A stretch of DNA of 64,000 nucleotides from an uncultured Anaerolineae bacterium (GTDB lineage: Bacteria > Chloroflexota > Anaerolineae > Aggregatilineales > Phototrophicaceae). The notes beneath the pieces are model-generated. The model searched no databases. It worked only from the letters and a program-made list of their open reading frames with translations, and had not been told where the DNA came from. This document shows, one piece after another, positions 3,373 to 58,704 of the stretch (position 1 is its first letter; each line of letters starts with the position of its first letter). Both the position numbers and the translations under genes were made by a program. The DNA lies in the NCBI GenBank assembly GCA_937995825.1, contig CALKJO010000002.1, positions 310,001 to 374,000 of the forward strand, given 5' to 3'.

Positions 3373-3864
3373 ATGAAGCGATTTTCCATTTTGTTCCTGA
3401 GCCTGGCGATGCTGGCGCTGGTCGGCTGCGGCAGCCGCAGCTTCGGCACACTCAGTGTTCAGACCGAACCGGTGGAGACGACCACGATCACGCGGACGGT
3501 TCAGTTCGTGGAGTCCGGTCGGCTCGGACCGGCGTACAACATTTCGCTCACAGTTCCGACTGAGTGGGTCGGGCGCTTCCAGACGCGCAATCGTGGCAAC
3601 AGCTTGCTTTTTGAGTTCATCAATGATCGCGGTCGCCCTGCGCCCATTTTCTCGCTCGATGCGCTGTCGAATGCCCAATACTGGGAGCAGATCGGCAATC
3701 TGCCAGGCGATTATAACAGCATCATCAACACCGCTGACACTTACATCGTCTATCATCTGCCGCTGACGCCGTTCTATTCTGGCTTGTCGCCTGCGCAGTT
3801 TCAATCGTTAGCCGACTCGGTTCCGAGCGTCATTCAGAGCATCCGCGTGACGCGCGTGCGCTGA
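3373..3864 (+). CDS. putative lipoprotein
   Basis: MKRFSILFLSLAMLALVGC lipobox signal; ATG at 3373 preceded by a purine-rich RBS. Confidence 0.65.
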   Translation: MKRFSILFLSLAMLALVGCGSRSFGTLSVQTEPVETTTITRTVQFVESGRLGPAYNISLTVPTEWVGRFQTRNRGNSLLFEFINDRGRPAPIFSLDALSNAQYWEQIGNLPGDYNSIINTADTYIVYHLPLTPFYSGLSPAQFQSLADSVPSVIQSIRVTRVR

Positions 3865-3928
3865 TCTTTTCGACAGGCGCAAGGCAAGTTACAATGGGGA
3901 ATGTGGGTAAAGAAGGAGAGAACACCTG

Positions 3929-4069
3929 ATGATGTACACTGAGTTCTGGGATATCGTTCTCAATCCCATCTTTGTCATCATGTTCGGGCTGGTGATGCTG
4001 CCGTTCGTGCCGCTGCTGATCAGCGTGTATGTCACTTGGAAAGAAAACGGCGAGCAGATGGACGAGTGA
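3929..4069 (+). CDS. small single-TM protein (46 aa)
   Basis: Missed by ORF track: MMYTEFWDIVLNPIFVIMFGLVMLPFVPLLISVYVTWKENGEQMDE; upstream aaggagag RBS; followed by a terminator at 4096. Confidence 0.6.
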   Translation: MMYTEFWDIVLNPIFVIMFGLVMLPFVPLLISVYVTWKENGEQMDE

Positions 4070-4095
4070 CCCGTCCACAGCCACCGACTCAACCT

Positions 4096-4145
4096 AAAAA
4101 AACGGCGTCTTCAGGCTGCCCCAAGCCTGTTGACGCCGTTTTTTT
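4096..4145 (+). terminator. bidirectional rho-independent terminator
   Basis: aaaaaaACGGCGTCttCAGGCTgccccAGCCTGttGACGCCGTttttttt. Confidence 0.9.
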
Positions 4146-4176
4146 CATGCAATGGTGCTGTTTCGGGGCAAAATCC

Positions 4177-4281
4177 CTAGACGCGCCCGCCCGCGCCGAT
4201 AACAATCATCAGGACAATCCAGACGAAAACGACAATCGTGACGACAACCGGCACTGCCCATTCCGAAGTTTCAGGTTTCAT
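4177..4281 (-). CDS. small single-TM protein (34 aa)
   Basis: Missed by ORF track: MKPETSEWAVPVVVTIVVFVWIVLMIVIGAGGRV with GAGGAGGTC RBS upstream of ATG; convergent with 3929..4069 around the shared terminator. Confidence 0.6.
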   Translation of the reverse strand: MKPETSEWAVPVVVTIVVFVWIVLMIVIGAGGRV

Positions 4282-4396
4282 GCTTTGACCTCCTCATGGT
4301 CAATTCAATGCGCAACCGATAGAATATCAATATATATCGATTATAGAACTCTCAAACGAGACCTGTCCAGCACCAAACCGCCGCTGCGCGCTGTGT

Positions 4397-5554
4397 CTAT
4401 GGGGGCAGCAGTGCCAGCGCGGCGCCAAACTTATTCTGCACGCTCCGCGGCGCGACTGCTGCAAGCTGCCAGAAGAGCGACCAGAAACCTGGGAATTGAT
4501 GGCGGTAAAAATGCCGCGCCACCATCACACGGCGCATCAGCAGACGCCCCAGGTGATGATCGAGAAGGCGCGCGCGATACCCCTGAAATGTGAAATCGTC
4601 ACGAGCAAAGGCGTCGCGAATGGTTTCGACCACCACCGCGCCGTATTCCATCGCGTAGGAGATGCCCTCGGCGAACAGCGGATCGACGCCCGCCGCGTCG
4701 CCAGCCAGCAGGATATGCGGGCGCGCGAACTCAGCGTCGGCATTGAACCAGCGCACTGGATGCCCCTCCAGCACCGCCGCGTCGAGATCGACCTGGCGAT
4801 CCTGCAAGCCCTCGGTGAAAAACTGCTTGAGCATCCCATGCGCGCGCTTGGCGGCGGTGTGCGGAATGAGGCGGCTGTCGAGAATGCCGCGATTCATGTG
4901 CGGCGCGCCGTCGATCAGGCAGGGAAAATCCCACATGTAGCCCTGAATCCCATGCAGGACGCAGGTGAAATCGAAGATGGCGGTCTGCTCCGCCCAGGTC
5001 GGGTTTTCGGGGCTGACGGGCGTCATCGTGCGCAGCAGCCGCGCGACTCCGGGCGTGTTGAACATGCGCAGCTTGCGCCGGACAGTGCTGTTCGCGCCGT
5101 CTGCGCCGACCACGACGCGCGCCCGATACTGCCCGGCGGCAGTCGTCAGTTCGACGCCGCCCTCAATCATGCGCAGATCGACCAGCTGCTCATGCGTGTG
5201 CATGGCAATGCCTCGGTCGATCACCGCCTGCGCTAGCACGGCATCGAAGACGGCGCGTTCGTAGATGTGCATCGCGCCGCTGTGCCGGATTTTGAAGCTG
5301 CGCCGTCCAAGGCGAAAGAGCAGGTTGTTGACTCGGAAGGTCGGCACGTCGATCTCGACGCCGAGCCGGCGAAGCTGCGCCGCGCCGTGAAACGTGACGC
5401 CGCCGCCGCACAGCTTGGGGCGCGGATGCTGTTTGGATTCGAGGATCAGGGTCTGACCTGCCAGCTCAGGAGCCTGCTGCGCCAGAAAGAGCGCTGTCGC
5501 TAAGCCGGCGGGTCCGCCGCCGACGATGATGATCTGATGGGTCATCTCAGTCAT
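4397..5554 (-). CDS. geranylgeranyl reductase-family FAD-dependent oxidoreductase
   Basis: N-terminal IIIVGGGPAGLATALFLA, KLCGGGVTFHG motif, VVGADGANSTVRRKL, LAGDAAGVDPLFAEGISYAMEYG. Confidence 0.8.
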   Translation of the reverse strand: MTEMTHQIIIVGGGPAGLATALFLAQQAPELAGQTLILESKQHPRPKLCGGGVTFHGAAQLRRLGVEIDVPTFRVNNLLFRLGRRSFKIRHSGAMHIYERAVFDAVLAQAVIDRGIAMHTHEQLVDLRMIEGGVELTTAAGQYRARVVVGADGANSTVRRKLRMFNTPGVARLLRTMTPVSPENPTWAEQTAIFDFTCVLHGIQGYMWDFPCLIDGAPHMNRGILDSRLIPHTAAKRAHGMLKQFFTEGLQDRQVDLDAAVLEGHPVRWFNADAEFARPHILLAGDAAGVDPLFAEGISYAMEYGAVVVETIRDAFARDDFTFQGYRARLLDHHLGRLLMRRVMVARHFYRHQFPGFWSLFWQLAAVAPRSVQNKFGAALALLPP

Positions 5555-6530: not shown

Positions 6531-7400
6531 ATGCTTCAGCGCATATCCACCATCACCGACAACCTCGAACATTTCTGGGAAAACCGAGTCATGAAGCGGT
6601 CTGCTGGGTCGATCCTAGTGGTGGTCTACCTCACGCTGATCGGCATCATCGAGCTGAACCGTCAGCGGCTTTTCCCGGAACCCCTGGCACCTTCTCTTCC
6701 AACCAATCACTTTTTCGCCGTCGAGATCACCTTCACCATCCTGCTGCTGACGGAAGTCATCAGCTTGGTCTTTGCGCTCACGCGCTCTTTCTCGCGCTCG
6801 ATTGGCGTGCAGCTTGAGATTTTATCGCTGATTCTGCTGCGCGACACGTTCAAGTATTTCACGACCTTCAGCGAGCCGCTCGAATGGGAGCAGGTCTCCG
6901 AGAGCATCGTGCCGATGCTGATCGATGCCATTGGCGCGCTGGCGATCTTTGTAATCGTGAGCTTCTACTACCGCATTCAAAAAAGCCGCCCGATCACCGC
7001 CGATGATTTGGAACAGAAAGAATTCATCGCCTACAAGAAGCTGCTCGCGCTCGGCATGATCGTCGTTTTCATCCTGATCGGCATCGTCGATCTGGTGCGG
7101 TTGATCCAGGGGCTTCGGCTCTATCCTTTTTTCGAGACCTTCTACACCGTGCTGATCTTCATCGACGTGCTGATGGTGCTGCTGTCACTGCGTTACAGCG
7201 TCAAGTTCACGGTCACCTTCCGCAATTTCAGTTTCGCTGTTGTTACCGTGTTCATCCGGCTGGCGCTGATCGCGCCGACGCTGATCGCCGTCCTGCTGGG
7301 CATCGGGACGGGCATTTTTGCGCTCGCCGTGAGTTATGCCTACAACTACAATCTGCGCCTGTATGCGGCGGAGCCGGCGGAACCGCGCCAGGCGAATTAG
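6531..7400 (+). CDS. polytopic membrane protein of unknown function
   Basis: Several TM helices; probable ATG at 6531; TACAAT -10-like element near 6487. Confidence 0.65.
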   Translation: MLQRISTITDNLEHFWENRVMKRSAGSILVVVYLTLIGIIELNRQRLFPEPLAPSLPTNHFFAVEITFTILLLTEVISLVFALTRSFSRSIGVQLEILSLILLRDTFKYFTTFSEPLEWEQVSESIVPMLIDAIGALAIFVIVSFYYRIQKSRPITADDLEQKEFIAYKKLLALGMIVVFILIGIVDLVRLIQGLRLYPFFETFYTVLIFIDVLMVLLSLRYSVKFTVTFRNFSFAVVTVFIRLALIAPTLIAVLLGIGTGIFALAVSYAYNYNLRLYAAEPAEPRQAN

Positions 7401-7413
7401 ATCGCCTGGCGCA
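7386..7413. terminator. 11-bp perfect inverted repeat between convergent genes
   Basis: GCGCCAGGCGA-attaga-TCGCCTGGCGC; no long T-run. Confidence 0.5.
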
Positions 7414-7438
7414 TGACGCGAATGACGTCGTTCGTTCC

Positions 7439-9046
7439 CTAGCGCGCCAGCATCTCGATGCTGAAAATCTGGGGCGAATTGTCCAGATTGAGCTGCATCG
7501 ACTGGACGCGCGGCGTGTGCACAAAATAGAACTGCACCCATGACAGGAACAGCACAGCGGCTTCGTCGTGCATCAGCCGCGAATTCTCGCGGATGAGCGC
7601 GTTGCGCGTCTCCCGATCGGGCGCGAGCTTGATCTGCTGGTTGAGTTCAAGGAAGCGCTCATTGTCGAACTCAATCGGCGCATTCGGCGGCAGCGTGGTG
7701 CTGTCGAGCGCGACCATCGCCTGCGTCCAATCGCCGAGCGTCGAGAACTGCGCCGGCGCGAGGATCATGTCGAAGTTCGTGCCGGTGAGCATCTGCATGA
7801 TGATCGTGCCGGTGTCCGCCGTTTCGACGCGCGTCCGAATGCCGACGCCTTCGAGATAAGCGGCGACCGCCTCGGCATCGGTGCGGACGGTGTTGGGCGC
7901 GCCCAGCGACAGCTCCAGATTCGGGTAGCCGGCTTCGCGCAGCAGCCGCATCGCCTCTTCAGGATCATACGGGAAGGCTTCGAGTTCCTCGTTGTAGCCG
8001 TCCATGCCCGGCTGCATCAGCTGACCAGTGGTCGGGACGCCGAAGCCGGCGCGGATGAACTCGTTGTACTCCTCTTTGTCGACCGCCAGATTGATCGCGC
8101 GGCGGACGCGCACATCGCGCAGCGCCTCATTGTTCTGCGGGAAGAAGCGCGCGATCTCGGTCGAGAGCGCTGGCTTGGTGGTGACAGTGAACGCGCCGCT
8201 GTCGATCAGTGCGCGCGCCACATCCGGCGGCACGCTCTGAGCGATGTCGATGTCGCCCGCCTGCAGCGCCGTGCGCAGATCGCCGACGACGGTGTAGGTC
8301 GCGGTCTGGATCGGATAGCTGCCGCGCCAGTTGCCTTCCCACCTCTCCAGCTCGATGCGCTCGCCTGGCGACCAGCCAGCGACGCGGAAATAGCCGGTTC
8401 CGACAGCGCCGTTGACCAGATCGCCGTTGGACTCGTTCATATACTGCTCAGAGATGATGAACAAGCGCGAGAGACGCTTCTCCAGCGTCGGATCGGGGCG
8501 GGTCGTGCGGATCAGCAGGTGCGTGTCGTCGATGATCTCAACGCTCTCATTGGTGAACAGCGGCGGCGCAACCATTTGACCCGTCGGGCTAAAAAGCGGC
8601 AGCAGGTTCAAATCCGTCAGCGGAATCTGATACGCGCCGAAATTCTGCATCCCCACCGTCAGCAGGTGGTTCATGGTGTAGGCGACAGACGCCGAGGTGA
8701 AGCGTTCGCCATTGGAGAAGAAGACATCATCGCGCAGCCGCATCTCCAATAGATTCGGCTCCACGCGATTCCACTCTACCGCTAAGCCGGGCAGCAGATT
8801 GCCTTCGGCGTCGGTCTCGATCAAGGTGTCGTAGATTTGGCGCGCCTGGAAATAGGCTTGGAAGAACGGACTCAGATTGGGCTGAATGCTGGTGTTGCCG
8901 ATGGTGACATGCGACGCCAGCGCTGTCTGCGCGGCGGCGCGCTGCGGCTGCCGCAGCCCGGCATACCCCATCAATCCCAATCCGGCGGCTGCCGCGCTCA
9001 TCTTGAAGAAATCGCGGCGGCTGAGCTGTGTGGTGGTAGGTGACAT
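7439..9046 (-). CDS. peptide/nickel-type ABC transporter substrate-binding protein (SBP family 5), Tat signal
   Basis: LSRRDFFKMSAAAAGLGLMG twin-Arg signal; FAM5 SBP features (LRDDVFFSNGERFTSASVAYTM, RRAINLAVDKEEYNE). Confidence 0.9.
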   Translation of the reverse strand: MSPTTTQLSRRDFFKMSAAAAGLGLMGYAGLRQPQRAAAQTALASHVTIGNTSIQPNLSPFFQAYFQARQIYDTLIETDAEGNLLPGLAVEWNRVEPNLLEMRLRDDVFFSNGERFTSASVAYTMNHLLTVGMQNFGAYQIPLTDLNLLPLFSPTGQMVAPPLFTNESVEIIDDTHLLIRTTRPDPTLEKRLSRLFIISEQYMNESNGDLVNGAVGTGYFRVAGWSPGERIELERWEGNWRGSYPIQTATYTVVGDLRTALQAGDIDIAQSVPPDVARALIDSGAFTVTTKPALSTEIARFFPQNNEALRDVRVRRAINLAVDKEEYNEFIRAGFGVPTTGQLMQPGMDGYNEELEAFPYDPEEAMRLLREAGYPNLELSLGAPNTVRTDAEAVAAYLEGVGIRTRVETADTGTIIMQMLTGTNFDMILAPAQFSTLGDWTQAMVALDSTTLPPNAPIEFDNERFLELNQQIKLAPDRETRNALIRENSRLMHDEAAVLFLSWVQFYFVHTPRVQSMQLNLDNSPQIFSIEMLAR

Positions 9047-9219
9047 GAGCTTTGATCTTTCCTGAATCTGAAAACACGAACGAAGATGCGCTGCAAGAAA
9101 CCGATTGTCAATGGAATGATGATCTCGTCACGAATGATCGGCGAATCCTCCTCCTTTGTAGGCTAAGCCGTCTTCATCAAGTTGTCGCCGGTTGGATGCG
9201 AATAAGCATTCGTATGCCG

Positions 9220-10167
9220 CTAGGCATACAGATGTCGCGACGAGAACTTTTGCAGCGCATCGCCAACCGTGTTGACACAGAGGATGGTCATCATCAGCGC
9301 CAGCCCCGGAACGACCGACATCCACCACGCATCCTGGAGATACGTTCTGCTGTCGTTGAGCATGTTGCCCCACGATGGAGTCGGCGGACTGACGCCCAGC
9401 CCGATGAAGCTCAGGCTGCTCTCGACCAGCACCAGCGCGCCGAAACTGAGCGTCCAGACGACGATGTTGACCGAGATGATGGCAGGGAAGATGTGGAGGC
9501 GGATCACGTGCTGTGAAGATGCGCCCAGCGCGATGGAAGCATGGACATATTCAAGCTCGCGCATCTTCAGGGTTTGCGCCCGTGTCACTTGAGCAGGATA
9601 GACCCAGCCCGACAGCGACATCAAGATGATCAGCACCAGCGGGCTGCTGCCGACAACCGCGATCACCGCCAGCGCCAGCACCAAAAACGGGAACGACACC
9701 CAGAATTCCGTCAGCCGCAGCAGCAGCCGGTCGAACACGCCGCCCAGATAGCCGCAGATCAAGCCCAGGCTCGCCCCGATCAGCGTTGCGGCGGTGCTGG
9801 CAACGAAGGCGACACCCAACGACACCTGACCGCCGTAGAGCGTGCGCGTGAGCAGATCGCGCCCCAAATTGTCGGTGCCGAGCGGATAGGCGGTCGAGCC
9901 GCCTTCCAGCCAGAAGGGGGGTTTAAAACGCTCGCGCATGCTGGCGGCGGTTGGACTATGGGGGGTAAGATGCTGCGCGAAGATGATCGCCATGACGAGG
10001 ATCGTCAGCACGATGCCGGCGATCACGCCTTCGCCATAGCGCCTGATCTGCCGCTGCAGCATGCGCCAGCGCCAGCGCGGGAGATTGAGCGGAGGCGGGG
10101 CATGAAGCAGTTCGGACGGCGCAGGCAGGACGACCGGGCTGGTTGGAATTTTAATGCTTGAATTCAT
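9220..10167 (-). CDS. peptide ABC transporter permease, DppC-like
   Basis: PLGTDNLGRDLLTRTLYGGQVSLGVAFVAS and C-terminal LGVSPPTPSWGNMLND. Confidence 0.92.
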   Translation of the reverse strand: MNSSIKIPTSPVVLPAPSELLHAPPPLNLPRWRWRMLQRQIRRYGEGVIAGIVLTILVMAIIFAQHLTPHSPTAASMRERFKPPFWLEGGSTAYPLGTDNLGRDLLTRTLYGGQVSLGVAFVASTAATLIGASLGLICGYLGGVFDRLLLRLTEFWVSFPFLVLALAVIAVVGSSPLVLIILMSLSGWVYPAQVTRAQTLKMRELEYVHASIALGASSQHVIRLHIFPAIISVNIVVWTLSFGALVLVESSLSFIGLGVSPPTPSWGNMLNDSRTYLQDAWWMSVVPGLALMMTILCVNTVGDALQKFSSRHLYA

Positions 10168-46229: not shown

Positions 46230-47924
46230 GTGCAGAAAGGTTTTTGTCACAGTCTTCGATTGGTGTTGATTCTGATCCTCGCGCTGAGCCTGTCGGGGCT
46301 GGCGCGCGCTCAGGACAGGAACGACACCGTCATCATCGGCGCACCTGCATCCACGGCGTTTCGTAATAATCCGCTCTGGGCGACCAGCTCGGCGGACTTC
46401 TACGTCTTCCCGCTCATCCTGCCGGGGCTGACTTGGTTCGACGATCAGATGAAGCCGATCCTGGCGCTGGCGGAGTCCGTGTCGATCAGCGAGGATGGGC
46501 TGACCTATACCTTCATGCTGCCGGAGAACGCCACTTGGAGCGACGGCGCGCCGATCACGGCGGAGGATGTCAAGTTCACCTGGGAGCTGAAGTCCCATCC
46601 GGCGCTGCTGGCGCTGCCGCAGCCGCCAGCGGGGCGCGGTGACATCACGCTGGTGGCAGGCGTCGACGCCTACAGCCGCGGTGAAGCGGATGAGATCACC
46701 GGCATTCAGGTGCTGGATGAGCGGACAGTGTCGTTCACGCTGAATTCCCCCAATTTCCTGTTCCTGGGCAACGCCACGCTCGGCATCCTGCCCAAGCACA
46801 TCCTCGGCGAGGTCGATCCGGCGCAGATCGCCGATCACTCGTATATTGACTTCCCCGATGTCACCAGCGGAGCCTATACGCTGGTGGAGTATGAACGCGG
46901 GAGTTTCTGGCGCTTAGCGGCGCGCCCGGATCACTGGGGCGTGCAGCCGGCGATCCCGAATGTGATCGTGCGCGCCTTTGCCGATATCCAGTCGCAGCTT
47001 GCAGCGATGGAGGCAGGCGAGATCGATGTGACAACCGTGCCTGCCGCTGAGGTCGAGCGCTTCGAAAACGTGGACGGAATCACCCTGGTGGCGCGCCCTG
47101 GATTGGGCTTCTACGTGCTGCACGTCAACATCAGCGAGCCGCGCGTGACCGAGAACTGCTCAGCGGAAGCGGTCGCACAGGCGTACACCAAGCGCGATCC
47201 GATTGCCGATGTGCGCGTGCGCCAGGCGCTGTCATTTGCCATCGACCGCGATGAGATCATCGATGTGATCGCCAACGGTCAGGGGACGCGCATCTTCTCC
47301 TCGATCTTCGGACCCGACTGGCTCGATAACAGCGGCTTGGAGGCGTATGACTACAATCCGGAGCGCGCGCTGGAACTGCTGGCGGAAGCCGGCTGGACGC
47401 TCAACGAGGCGGGCAATCGCTTGGTCAATGCCAACGGCGAGTCGATCCGTCAGCTCATTTACGTGTCCCAGGCGGGTGAGGAAGGCTTTCAGCTCGGCAT
47501 CCTGCTGCAGGATTATCTGGGCGCAATCGGCATCCCGCTGGAAATCCGCCTGACGACCGCCAGCAACTTCCTGCCGACGGTTTTTGAAGAAGATTGGGAC
47601 TTGGCGCGCAACGCCGGCGGGTCGCTTGGGCGCGATCCCAGCGAGAGCGCGCGCTTCTACCGCACCTGCGCCGGCTGGGCGAACGCCATTGGCTACAGCA
47701 ACCCCGAATGGGACGCCCTGATGGACTCCGGCGCGGCGACGACTGACCTGAGCGAGCGCGCTGCCATCTACAATCAAGCGGCGCGCACCCTCAATACGGA
47801 GCTGCCCAGCCTGTTCTTGATGTCGCCCAACATCACGTGGGCGGTGCGCGATACGATTGAAGGCTTTGTCGGCTCGGCGGGCAACTACATCACCTGGAAC
47901 CTTCCCGATTGGCGGCTGCGCTAG
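46230..47924 (+). CDS. peptide-type ABC substrate-binding protein (SBP family 5)
   Basis: LTYTFMLPENATWSDGAPITAEDVKFTWEL, VRQALSFAIDRDEIIDVI; GTG start after aggagg. Confidence 0.92.
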   Translation: MQKGFCHSLRLVLILILALSLSGLARAQDRNDTVIIGAPASTAFRNNPLWATSSADFYVFPLILPGLTWFDDQMKPILALAESVSISEDGLTYTFMLPENATWSDGAPITAEDVKFTWELKSHPALLALPQPPAGRGDITLVAGVDAYSRGEADEITGIQVLDERTVSFTLNSPNFLFLGNATLGILPKHILGEVDPAQIADHSYIDFPDVTSGAYTLVEYERGSFWRLAARPDHWGVQPAIPNVIVRAFADIQSQLAAMEAGEIDVTTVPAAEVERFENVDGITLVARPGLGFYVLHVNISEPRVTENCSAEAVAQAYTKRDPIADVRVRQALSFAIDRDEIIDVIANGQGTRIFSSIFGPDWLDNSGLEAYDYNPERALELLAEAGWTLNEAGNRLVNANGESIRQLIYVSQAGEEGFQLGILLQDYLGAIGIPLEIRLTTASNFLPTVFEEDWDLARNAGGSLGRDPSESARFYRTCAGWANAIGYSNPEWDALMDSGAATTDLSERAAIYNQAARTLNTELPSLFLMSPNITWAVRDTIEGFVGSAGNYITWNLPDWRLR

Positions 47925-52976: not shown

Positions 52977-53738
<762 letters not shown>

Positions 53739-53740
53739 GT

Positions 53741-55870
53741 TTATCGCAGCGCCTCAGCGATGATATTGATATTACGGCGCATCATGCCGAGGTAGGTCTC
53801 CGCGCCCGAACCCGCCGGACCGAGTCCATGTGTGAACAGTGGATCAGCCAGCATCACGCCCGCTTCGTCGGCGATCTGCTGCATCAGCGCCGGATTGCCG
53901 ACGGTCTCGACGAAGATCGCCGGGATGCCCGTTTCGCGAATTTCCTCGATCACCAGCGCGATCTGCCCCGCCGCCGGTTCCGCGCCGGTAGTCACTGCCC
54001 CAAGCGCCGAGTCGAGCAGGGTGAAGCCGTAATCGCGGGCAAAATAGGCGAACAGCTCATGCGTCGTCACCAGCACGCGGTTCGCTTCCGGAATGGTCGC
54101 CACCTGCTCGCGGATATAGGCATCCAGCTCCAGCAGCTCGACGATGTACGCTTCTGCGTTCGCCGCATAGACCGCCGCGTTCGCCGGATCAGCCGCCATC
54201 AGCGCATCGCGCACATTTTCCGTCATGATGACAACATTCAGCGGCGACATCCAGGTGTGCGGGTCGAACTCGCCGTGTGCATGATCATCATGGGCGTGAT
54301 CGCCTTCGCCGTCAAGTTCGCTTTCGGCGGTCATGCCGAACACTGCCATGTTGGCGGGCTTGCCGCCGACGAAGACGCGCATGTCGGTGATCGCCATCGT
54401 CTCCAGGTCAACCGCGCGGATGTCGCCTGGCAGTGGCTCGCTGACATAAACCATGTGACCGTTGGTGACGAACGTCGGGCGGGCGGCGGCGCGACCGCTG
54501 GCGGGAGCCGTGAACGGATCGACCACCTGCACCGTGCCTTCGATCTCGCCCGTCGCGATGTCGATCACGTGCAGATTGCCGTCCATCGTCAGCGCGACGA
54601 CTTTCGATGGGTCCTCGCCGTGATACTGGAAGCGCCAGATGCGCTGACCGGCATCCAGCACCACCGCCGACTCGCCGGCGACTGGATCGATGCGGACGAT
54701 GGCATTGCGCCCGTAATTGCCCAGCAGGAATTGAGCGCCATCGACATAATAAAGCGTGCCGGTGCGCAGATCGGGGTTGGCGGTCGGGTTGGCGATCTTG
54801 CGCGAGACGAATGCATCGCCATCGCGCTCGATCAGCAGCACGCCGTCCGAACAGCCGAACGCCACACCGTCATCGCTGTACGCGGCTTCGCCATGCAGAC
54901 CTGGGCATTCCGGGAAGCTCTGAAGAATCTCGCTGTCCATGTTCATGACATCGACGCCAATCGGCAGGCTGCTGTTCATATCCTCCATGTTCGGGCTGGA
55001 GATCAGCACCACATCGCCCAGCGGCACGGCAACGCCGTGATGGGCGCGGGCGGTCGCCACCGTGATGATCGCCTCAGACGGATCGAACAGGTAGTTCTGC
55101 GTGAAGATCGACGCCGTGCCGTCCCCATCGTTGAAGATGGCGATCTGGTCATGGTGCGTCACGAAGTGGATCGGGGTTGAACCGGGAATGTCAACGCCCA
55201 ACAGCGCCGGACGCCCGAACTCGGCATGGAAGTGGTCATCGTGCGCCACCATCGACACGCCGCTGTCGATCACATTGGTGACGCCGCCGGTCATCTGCAC
55301 GGCAAAGGCATAGCGCCCATTCGGCGAAGGATAGAGGTTCGGGCGAGCGGTCAGCTCGAAGGTGGCGATCACTTCATTGGAGCGCAGGTCGATCACATGC
55401 ACCGTGCCGCTCTCGAAGTCGTTGACGATCAGGCGCGCGCCGACCATCGAATCGTCCTCCATGAAGCCGCCGTGATGATGATCCCTGTCATGAGCGTGAT
55501 TGTGGTCATGATGCCCCGCGAATTCCAGCACGTCAACCCCATCGCTGACCGCGACGCGCAGCGCCGTTGAGCCGGAGGATTCATACAGTGCGTCGATCCA
55601 CGGTTCCAGTTCCAGCCCGTTCTCAAACAGGATGTCGGCTTGTGCCAGCGCGATCAAGTCCTGCGGCGTGGGTTCATACACATGCGGATCGCCATCCCCG
55701 CCGACCAGCACGGTCAGTGAAACGTTCTCGCCGCCTACGATCTCGACGATTTCCCCAAGAATGCTGTACGTGGCGACCACCTTCAGCGGCGCGTCCTGCG
55801 CGCTGCTCAGCGGCGCACTGAGCGCCAGAAGTGCCAACAAAACCAGAACCAACATACGACGTAATGCCAT
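53741..55870 (-). CDS. ZnuA/AztC-type metal-binding SBP with inserted AztD-like beta-propeller
   Basis: N-lobe KVVATYSILGEIVEIVGGENVSLTVLVGGDGDPHVYEPTPQD; His loop GHHDHNHAHDRDHHHGG; propeller-like insert VGARLIVNDFESGTVHVIDLRSNEVIATFELT...; second His loop GDHAHDDHAHGEFDPHTWMSP and ZnuA C-lobe. Confidence 0.85.
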   Translation of the reverse strand: MALRRMLVLVLLALLALSAPLSSAQDAPLKVVATYSILGEIVEIVGGENVSLTVLVGGDGDPHVYEPTPQDLIALAQADILFENGLELEPWIDALYESSGSTALRVAVSDGVDVLEFAGHHDHNHAHDRDHHHGGFMEDDSMVGARLIVNDFESGTVHVIDLRSNEVIATFELTARPNLYPSPNGRYAFAVQMTGGVTNVIDSGVSMVAHDDHFHAEFGRPALLGVDIPGSTPIHFVTHHDQIAIFNDGDGTASIFTQNYLFDPSEAIITVATARAHHGVAVPLGDVVLISSPNMEDMNSSLPIGVDVMNMDSEILQSFPECPGLHGEAAYSDDGVAFGCSDGVLLIERDGDAFVSRKIANPTANPDLRTGTLYYVDGAQFLLGNYGRNAIVRIDPVAGESAVVLDAGQRIWRFQYHGEDPSKVVALTMDGNLHVIDIATGEIEGTVQVVDPFTAPASGRAAARPTFVTNGHMVYVSEPLPGDIRAVDLETMAITDMRVFVGGKPANMAVFGMTAESELDGEGDHAHDDHAHGEFDPHTWMSPLNVVIMTENVRDALMAADPANAAVYAANAEAYIVELLELDAYIREQVATIPEANRVLVTTHELFAYFARDYGFTLLDSALGAVTTGAEPAAGQIALVIEEIRETGIPAIFVETVGNPALMQQIADEAGVMLADPLFTHGLGPAGSGAETYLGMMRRNINIIAEALR

Positions 55871-55958
55871 GAACAGCCTCTCCTTGCTTCAAACTTACCT
55901 CTTAATGCTTGCAATGCATTCATCGATGCGCTGCTGAGTCAGTCAGCGCAAAACGTAT

Positions 55959-55973
55959 TGATACCATGTATCA
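55959..55973. promoter_or_regulatory. candidate Fur/Zur-family operator (7-1-7 palindrome)
   Basis: TGATACCATGTATCA; overlaps putative minus-strand promoter TTGTCA-17-TATCAA upstream of 53741..55870. Confidence 0.55.
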
Positions 55974-56713: not shown

Positions 56714-57052
56714 GTGACTCGCGCTTTTGTATTCACCAACCACAAAGGGGGCATCGGCAAGTCCACGTCCGCCACCAATATCGCGCTCGGCATCGCCGGG
56801 ATGCTGCAGCGCGCTGGCGCTCCCAATGCGCGTGTGCTGCTGATTGATACCGAAGCGTGCTGGAGCTGCTGCCGAACGCTGGCGGCGAAGGTCGCACAAG
56901 TGATCAGCGCGACCACGCCGCAGGAACTGGCACGAGCGCTCATGCGCCAGGAATCAGATCAGGCATCAGCGCACGCTGACCAGATGCGCACGCTCCCATC
57001 CCCGCTGGCGGAGGCGAGTTCGCGTCCATCCGGCGACCAGGCGAGGTCATAA
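56714..57052 (+). pseudogene. 5' fragment of ParA-like ATPase
   Basis: GTG/ATG-like start, FVFTNHKGGIGKSTSATNIALGIA deviant Walker A and VLLIDTE, then non-homologous sequence running into the antisense WD40 gene. Confidence 0.55.
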
Positions 57053-58704
57053 TTGTAGCCAGTATGCCCGCGCAGGATGACCAACTGCTCCCCTGAGACG
57101 ACATCGAAAATGCGCACTGATCTGCCCTGTCCGGTGGCGGCGAGCAGCGCGCCGTCCGGTGAAAAGGCGACCGCCTGCGAATTCCAGATCAAATCGGTCA
57201 TGAAACGCTGCGTGCCCGTCTCGACATCCCACAAGCGGACGGTGTTATCGCCGCCGCCGGACGCGAGCAGGCGTCCATCGGGGCTGAACGCCATCGCGCG
57301 GATCGCCTGACCGCCGTGTCCCGCCAGCGTGGAGACCCGCGCGCCGGACGAGTCGGTGATGACGATCTCCGGCAGCGCCAGCGACGCAGTCAGCCGCCCA
57401 TCCGGGCTGGTGACGGCAGCGAGATTGCGCGCCTCGGTCGGCGGCAGCAGCTCGCCGGATGCGGCATCCCAGACGAACACATCGCGGTGCGCGCCCTGCG
57501 CGGTGATCTGCGCGCCGTCCGGGCTGATCTCCACATTGAGGACAGCCGCAACCCAGCCCGCAATCGGATAGCGCCGCTCCGCGCCCGTCGCGCGCTCCCA
57601 GACGATGATCTCCCTACCCCCGCCGCCCGCCGCCAGCCGCGCGCCGTCCGGCGAGTAAGTCAGCGCGTTGAAGCCGGTGTTGTACATGGGGGAGGTGTCC
57701 AGCAGCGCGCCCGACTCGGCGTCCCAGCGCCGCAGCGCGCCGTCGGTCGATCCGGTGATGAGCTGCGTCCCGTCCGCGCTGTAGACAATGCCCGCCACCT
57801 GCCATTCGCCATCGCTGAGCGAGTGGATCAGGTCGCCCGACGCCGTATCCCAGACGCGGATCAGCCCGCGCATCCCCGCCGCCGTCAGCCGCGCCCCATC
57901 CGGGCTGAACGCGATCTGCCGCGTCTCCTCCCCGAAGCGCAGGCTGAACCGCTCAGCGCCGGTCTCGGTCTCCCACACCCAGACATCGTGCGCGCCCGCC
58001 GCCAGCAGCCGCCCATCCTGGCTGAAGGCGAGCGCGCGCAGATGCAGCGAACCCGTGCTGAAGTCATAGAGCAGGCGTTCGTCCGCCGACAAGAGGACGA
58101 CGCGCCCGCTGCTGTCGCTGAAGGCGTAAAAGCGCCCATCGGGGGATGCCGCCACGCTGGTCATCCGGATCGTCCCCGTCCCGATCAGCGAATTGCGCCG
58201 CCAGCGCCGAATGACACCCGACGCTGCGTCCCAGATGCCCAGTCTGTTATCATGCCCGGCGGTGAAGGCGCGCGCGCCGTCCGCGCTGAAGGCGACATCG
58301 ACGATCCAGCCGTCATGACCGCGCAGCGTTGTCAGGATCGACTCGCTGGCGATGTCCCAGATGTGGGCGGTGTAGTCCCAACTCCCGCTGATCAGCCGCG
58401 TCCCGGTCGGGTCAAAGGCGGCTGCCGCTGTATCGTCGCTGTGACCACTCAGCAGGGTAAGCGGCTGCATCGTCGCGGCATCATGCAGCCAGACGCCGAT
58501 GGTGCTGGCGACCGCCAGCGTTTGCCCATCCGGGCTAAGCGCCAGCCGTTTGATGATCCCGCGCCCGAACAGCGCCGTCTGGCGCATCTGCGCGGCATTG
58601 TCGATGGTGATGGGTGGACATTCGGCTTCGGCGGCGGACGGAGATGTCCAGAACGGAGAAAAAAAGACCGACAGGATCAGGAAAACTGTGCCTACTCGCA
58701 GCAT
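56959..58704 (-). CDS. secreted WD40-repeat protein
   Basis: Signal peptide; many SPDGRLLASGGGDNTVRLWDVETG-type repeats. Confidence 0.92.
   Translation of the reverse strand: MLRVGTVFLILSVFFSPFWTSPSAAEAECPPITIDNAAQMRQTALFGRGIIKRLALSPDGQTLAVASTIGVWLHDAATMQPLTLLSGHSDDTAAAAFDPTGTRLISGSWDYTAHIWDIASESILTTLRGHDGWIVDVAFSADGARAFTAGHDNRLGIWDAASGVIRRWRRNSLIGTGTIRMTSVAASPDGRFYAFSDSSGRVVLLSADERLLYDFSTGSLHLRALAFSQDGRLLAAGAHDVWVWETETGAERFSLRFGEETRQIAFSPDGARLTAAGMRGLIRVWDTASGDLIHSLSDGEWQVAGIVYSADGTQLITGSTDGALRRWDAESGALLDTSPMYNTGFNALTYSPDGARLAAGGGGREIIVWERATGAERRYPIAGWVAAVLNVEISPDGAQITAQGAHRDVFVWDAASGELLPPTEARNLAAVTSPDGRLTASLALPEIVITDSSGARVSTLAGHGGQAIRAMAFSPDGRLLASGGGDNTVRLWDVETGTQRFMTDLIWNSQAVAFSPDGALLAATGQGRSVRIFDVVSGEQLVILRGHTGYNYDLAWSPDGRELASASGDGSVRIWSACADA

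Follow-up and report, generated by a model that had tools for sequence, protein, structure and literature searches.

Can a zinc-uptake substrate-binding protein (SBP) carry, within a single polypeptide, the metallochaperone from which it would otherwise receive its zinc? The question arose from an ORF in a 64,000-nucleotide stretch of DNA (the window) from a Chloroflexota bacterium, contig CALKJO010000002.1, for which the first-pass annotation had proposed that an AztD-like beta-propeller was nested inside the His-rich loop of a ZnuA/AztC-type SBP, suggesting an intramolecular metal hand-off. In order to establish whether such a gene exists, both strands were read. The 709-aa ORF was found on the minus strand, with the ATG at 55870, the last codon ending at 53744 and the stop at 53743-53741; the plus-strand reading of the same coordinates was interrupted by stops. 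The features of the locus are as follows.

53741..55870, minus strand: nested chaperone-SBP fusion, 709 aa
55796..55870, minus strand: residues 1-25, Sec-type signal peptide (MALRRMLVLVLLALLALSAPLSSAQ), with no lipobox Cys and a predicted helix at 2-16
55517..55795, minus strand: residues 26-118, SBP lobe 1, with zinc ligand H63
55448..55516, minus strand: residues 119-141, first half of the D-loop, with the His-rich linker HHDHNHAHDRDHHH (120-133)
54326..55447, minus strand: residues 142-515, predicted AztD propeller
54269..54325, minus strand: residues 516-534, second half of the D-loop, with the His-rich linker DHAHDDHAHG (524-533)
53744..54268, minus strand: residues 535-709, SBP lobe 2, with zinc ligands H538, H604 and H681
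52977..53738, minus strand: AztA-like ABC ATPase, 253 aa, directly downstream
55959..55973, no strand assigned: perfect palindrome TGATACnnnGTATCA, about 90-100 bp upstream of the ATG, candidate operator of a Zur-like regulator
55878..55885, minus strand: AAGGAGAG, probable ribosome-binding site

To determine which families the ORF belongs to, it was compared with profile and structure-derived sequence collections. Pfam ZnuA (PF01297) matched in two separated stretches (E 2e-83), the second of which spans residues 516-707. NCBIfam AztD (NF038015) matched residues 150-511 over profile positions 2-354 of 356 (254 bits, E 2e-75) and AztC (NF040870) matched the two flanks (262 bits), although both scores fall under the curated cut-offs of 400 and 350, respectively. 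A phmmer search of the PDB recovered solved AztD (6cmk, residues 139-532, E 1e-55) and AztC (5kzj, in two stretches, and 5w56). The proposed nesting was thus confirmed, with two small corrections: solved AztD has 8 blades (PMC6689063) rather than the 7 assumed in the first-pass annotation, and the insert is about 374 residues (142-515). A secreted 581-aa WD40-repeat protein encoded upstream of the fusion (56959-58704, minus strand) was judged to belong to an unrelated propeller family.

To examine the fold of the protein, an AlphaFold2 model was built with 34 aligned nested homologues and compared with solved structures by Foldseek. The mean pLDDT was 85.6; lobe 1, the propeller (strands from 142 to 515) and lobe 2 were confident, and only the two His-rich linkers (119-139 and 521-532), residues 18-25 and a short loop at 624-630 fell under 50. 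The best PDB hits were all AztD (TM-score normalised to the target of 0.92 for 6n01, 0.88 for 6cmk and 0.89-0.91 for 6ck1), followed by AztC (0.86-0.95), which aligned over about 682 columns, that is, with the propeller as one long gap. pTM was 0.63, and no claim is made for the relative placement of the domains.

We next mapped the published zinc ligands onto the fusion; the numbering of AztD from Paracoccus sp. MA is offset by 4 from that of P. denitrificans, which fits every published residue. AztD site 1 (H124/H167/H218) corresponds to H235/H278/H326, and the disulfide pair C214/C231 corresponds to C322/C340. Site 2 is altered: H99/G100/H102/D104 corresponds to H210/D211/H213/H215, such that H210 and H213 are kept while D104 is replaced by His (the residue is Asp in the relatives L009 and L010; L numbers denote loci of our collection). 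All four free-standing AztDs compared (Paracoccus sp., Shinella, Thermus and Streptomyces) end in His, the H408 ligand of site 2, whereas in the fusion this end runs straight into the His linker that leads to SBP ligand H538 and takes the place of the C-terminal His. Of the AztC ligands H61, H138, H204 and D279, the first three are kept as H63, H538 and H604, and the fourth is H681, a His in place of Asp.

The position of the insert bears on its possible role. In P. denitrificans AztD, site 2 and not site 1 gives zinc to AztC, by a slow associative reaction (PMC6689063). The AztC D-loop (residues 117-133) and its three His are essential for taking zinc from AztD, and in the docking model this loop enters the AztD pore while the N-terminus of AztD lies at the interface (PMC7463823). 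The insertion lies in that same loop, with His-rich stretches on either side (120-133 and 524-532).

To explore whether the architecture recurs, genomes related at the level of family, class and phylum were scanned. In the window's family, 7 of 98 genomes had a strong AztD match, all in frame with SBP sequence where the contig allows it to be seen; in the class draw, 12 of 397 genomes had one, ten of them a Caldilineaceae lineage that includes a single 5.4-Mb contig; a phylum draw added four, all nested. The named collection gave 31 loci with lobe 1, AztD and lobe 2 in one frame, all Chloroflexota, and free-standing AztD was found in the same scan in Dehalococcoidia and Alteromonadales. Of the partial AztD hits (L014-L019, L021-L023 and L034-L037), those read out were YncE-type or other propellers, not AztD. 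Against L007, the window protein showed 76-80% identity and dN/dS of 0.10-0.20 in every part; against L009, dN/dS was 0.18-0.27. In L054, L059 and L063, nested SBPs have an extra N-terminal stretch of roughly 190-270 residues before lobe 1 (repeat-like in L054), perhaps a surface stalk. The Caldilineaceae nested SBPs carry a lipobox (LLAAC), whereas SBPs of the window's genome (55796-55870, minus strand, and 46230-47924, plus strand) carry signal peptides without a lipobox Cys, although many Chloroflexota are thought to lack an outer membrane.

To gain insight into the origin of the nested forms, trees were built separately for the AztD and SBP parts. The window's AztD groups with alphaproteobacterial AztD (98/89) and its SBP with alphaproteobacterial AztC (99/97), so that here AztD is nested in its own kind of partner; the other nested AztDs sit in several different SBP subfamilies. 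Holding all nested forms together was rejected by the AU test for the SBPs (p-AU 2e-4) and for the AztDs (4e-6). This favours nesting at the same loop at least twice, or nesting plus transfer of the insert between SBPs, although an ancient fusion followed by fissions and exchange of AztD between SBPs is not formally excluded. In L057, a plain SBP with a 90-residue loop and a nested SBP (3696-4958 and 7281-9746) lie side by side and are each other's nearest relatives, suggesting a likely loss or gain of the propeller within one genome.

The same loop receives other inserts. Two family members, L011/L089 (L011:481-3156) and L012/L042, carry a ZinT domain between lobe 1 and AztD (Pfam 50.7 and 34.4 bits, cut-off 27). 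The L012/L042 gene is broken into two frames near the end of AztD, and in an AlphaFold2 model of the SBP[ZinT-AztD] protein the ZinT region reached a pLDDT of only about 30-65 with two sequences aligned, so that its fold was not confirmed. L122 (2633-4189, minus strand) and L123 (969-2525, plus strand) encode cluster A-I SBPs with a different insert of about 150-170 residues, without a Pfam match, at the same place, next to ABC permease genes (and an ATPase in L122). We consider it more likely than not that the D-loop of zinc SBPs is a recurrent plug-in site, into which whole zinc-chaperone domains (AztD; ZinT followed by AztD) and other small inserts have been placed more than once, making single-chain zinc relays in which the exit ligand of the chaperone merges with the acquisition loop of the SBP.

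The genomic context was then examined. The AztA-like ATPase (NF040873, 199 bits against a cut-off of 220) directly follows the fusion, but no permease lies next to it; the permease ortholog, which is adjacent in L038, L040, L041 and L042, lies about 141 kb away in this genome (L090:6770-7675, minus strand; position 506829 of contig C2 of this genome, G000), indicating a split operon. In L038 the order is palindrome, fur, fusion, cobW (COG0523), ATPase, permease and a second cobW. In contrast, many nested homologues with other SBP types, among them L048, L060, L062, L065 and L078 of a second SBP subfamily, have no adjacent ATPase or permease. The palindrome TGAKACnnnGTMTCA occurs 9 times in 730 kb of related loci, every time within 900 bp upstream of the first domain of an AztD gene, with none in the reversed control. 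It occurs 3 times in the 3.5-Mb genome of the window: before the fusion, before a cyclase-family (PF04199) gene and before a gene 68% identical to the SaoD/DsrE gene beside aztD in Thermus (the latter two at L125:1501-1515 and L126:1501-1515), a candidate small zinc regulon. That a Zur-type regulator binds the palindrome is inferred; no paper naming it as a Zur box was found.

The closest known systems differ in defined ways. In the AztABCD transporters of Paracoccus denitrificans and Citrobacter koseri, AztC and AztD are separate proteins; here both partners are recognisable, with zinc sites conserved apart from the changes described above, and the AztA-like ATPase is adjacent, but AztC and AztD are one polypeptide and the permease is encoded elsewhere. 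AdcA of streptococci likewise joins a ZnuA-like SBP and a zinc-recruiting chaperone in one polypeptide (PMC6689063), but there the partner is ZinT, probably C-terminal, and no ZinT was found in the window protein. The TIGR03772 anchored-repeat ABC transporter SBP of Actinobacteria (Zur-regulated dip0438 in Corynebacterium diphtheriae; PMC6711530) is a cluster A-I SBP whose model carries about 250 extra residues between the parts that match our two lobes (profile 1-60 and 310-485); the match was split, at 164 bits against a cut-off of 350, in the relatives only the two ends of the profile matched, and our insert does not match that of the model. Finally, a Rhizobium sp. Q54 plasmid encodes a 610-aa AztD-ZinT fusion annotated only as ZinT (L132:4899-6731), but this is end-to-end and contains no SBP. 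Consistent with the first-pass annotation, no description of the nested architecture was found, at least in the open-access literature, which does not include most subscription journals.

We reason that the protein is an AztC-like SBP with its own metallochaperone built into the flexible His-rich D-loop, and assign this reading, including the mechanism that follows, a probability of about 0.72. Outside the cytoplasm, the two His-rich linkers and the two AztD zinc sites would collect Zn(II); site 2 (H210, H213 and H215 plus a His from the second linker) would hand the ion to the SBP cleft (H63, H538, H604 and H681), the slow bimolecular encounter of AztD with AztC being replaced by a fast first-order step because the propeller is tethered. 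The loaded SBP would then deliver zinc to an ABC-3 permease with the AztA-like ATPase, and expression is probably repressed by a Fur/Zur-type regulator at TGATACnnnGTATCA when zinc is sufficient. Zinc as the metal, the direction and intramolecular nature of transfer, and regulation by zinc are inferred in the absence of measurements on the fusion; SBPs of the A-I cluster also carry Mn or Fe.

Two alternatives are unlikely but survive. The propeller may be a high-capacity zinc store or scavenging module that raises local zinc or buffers toxicity, in keeping with linkers in the relatives that are very rich in His, Asp and Glu; however, the insertion sits exactly in the loop needed for AztD-to-AztC transfer and nesting there recurs with distinct SBP types, whereas a store need not be nested at that position. 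About as improbable is transfer between two copies, in which the propeller of one molecule serves the cleft of another in an oligomer and the fusion mainly secures co-expression and 1:1 stoichiometry. In the docking model the AztC D-loop enters the AztD pore, and within one chain that loop is split into two linkers, so the same pose may need a partner molecule; yet the placement of the AztD N-terminus at the AztC interface in that model (PMC7463823) makes a single-chain pose possible, and co-expression alone would not need nesting at the same loop more than once. An assembly or frameshift artefact, conceivable in an incomplete genome of 24 contigs, is refuted by the same architecture in over 30 other loci, including single-contig genomes, and by a continuous frame with uniform GC/GC3 and dN/dS of 0.10-0.27 in all parts.

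Together these data describe a zinc-uptake system of known parts in which chaperone and SBP are nested in one chain, with direct transfer within the chain as the best-supported, though inferred, mechanism. Direct protein-to-protein zinc transfer is hard to study because donor and acceptor meet only briefly; AztD-AztC transfer runs at about 600-1300 per M per s and forms no stable complex (PMC6689063). A natural single-chain version fixes donor and acceptor at 1:1 in a defined topology, which would make the structure, kinetics and stoichiometry of the hand-off directly measurable, and it supports the view that the D-loop docks on AztD. It also warns annotators that, below the curated cut-offs, the AztD part may go unnamed. 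That the arrangement appears more than once, and that ZinT appears in the same loop, would explain why zinc-specific SBPs keep this loop.
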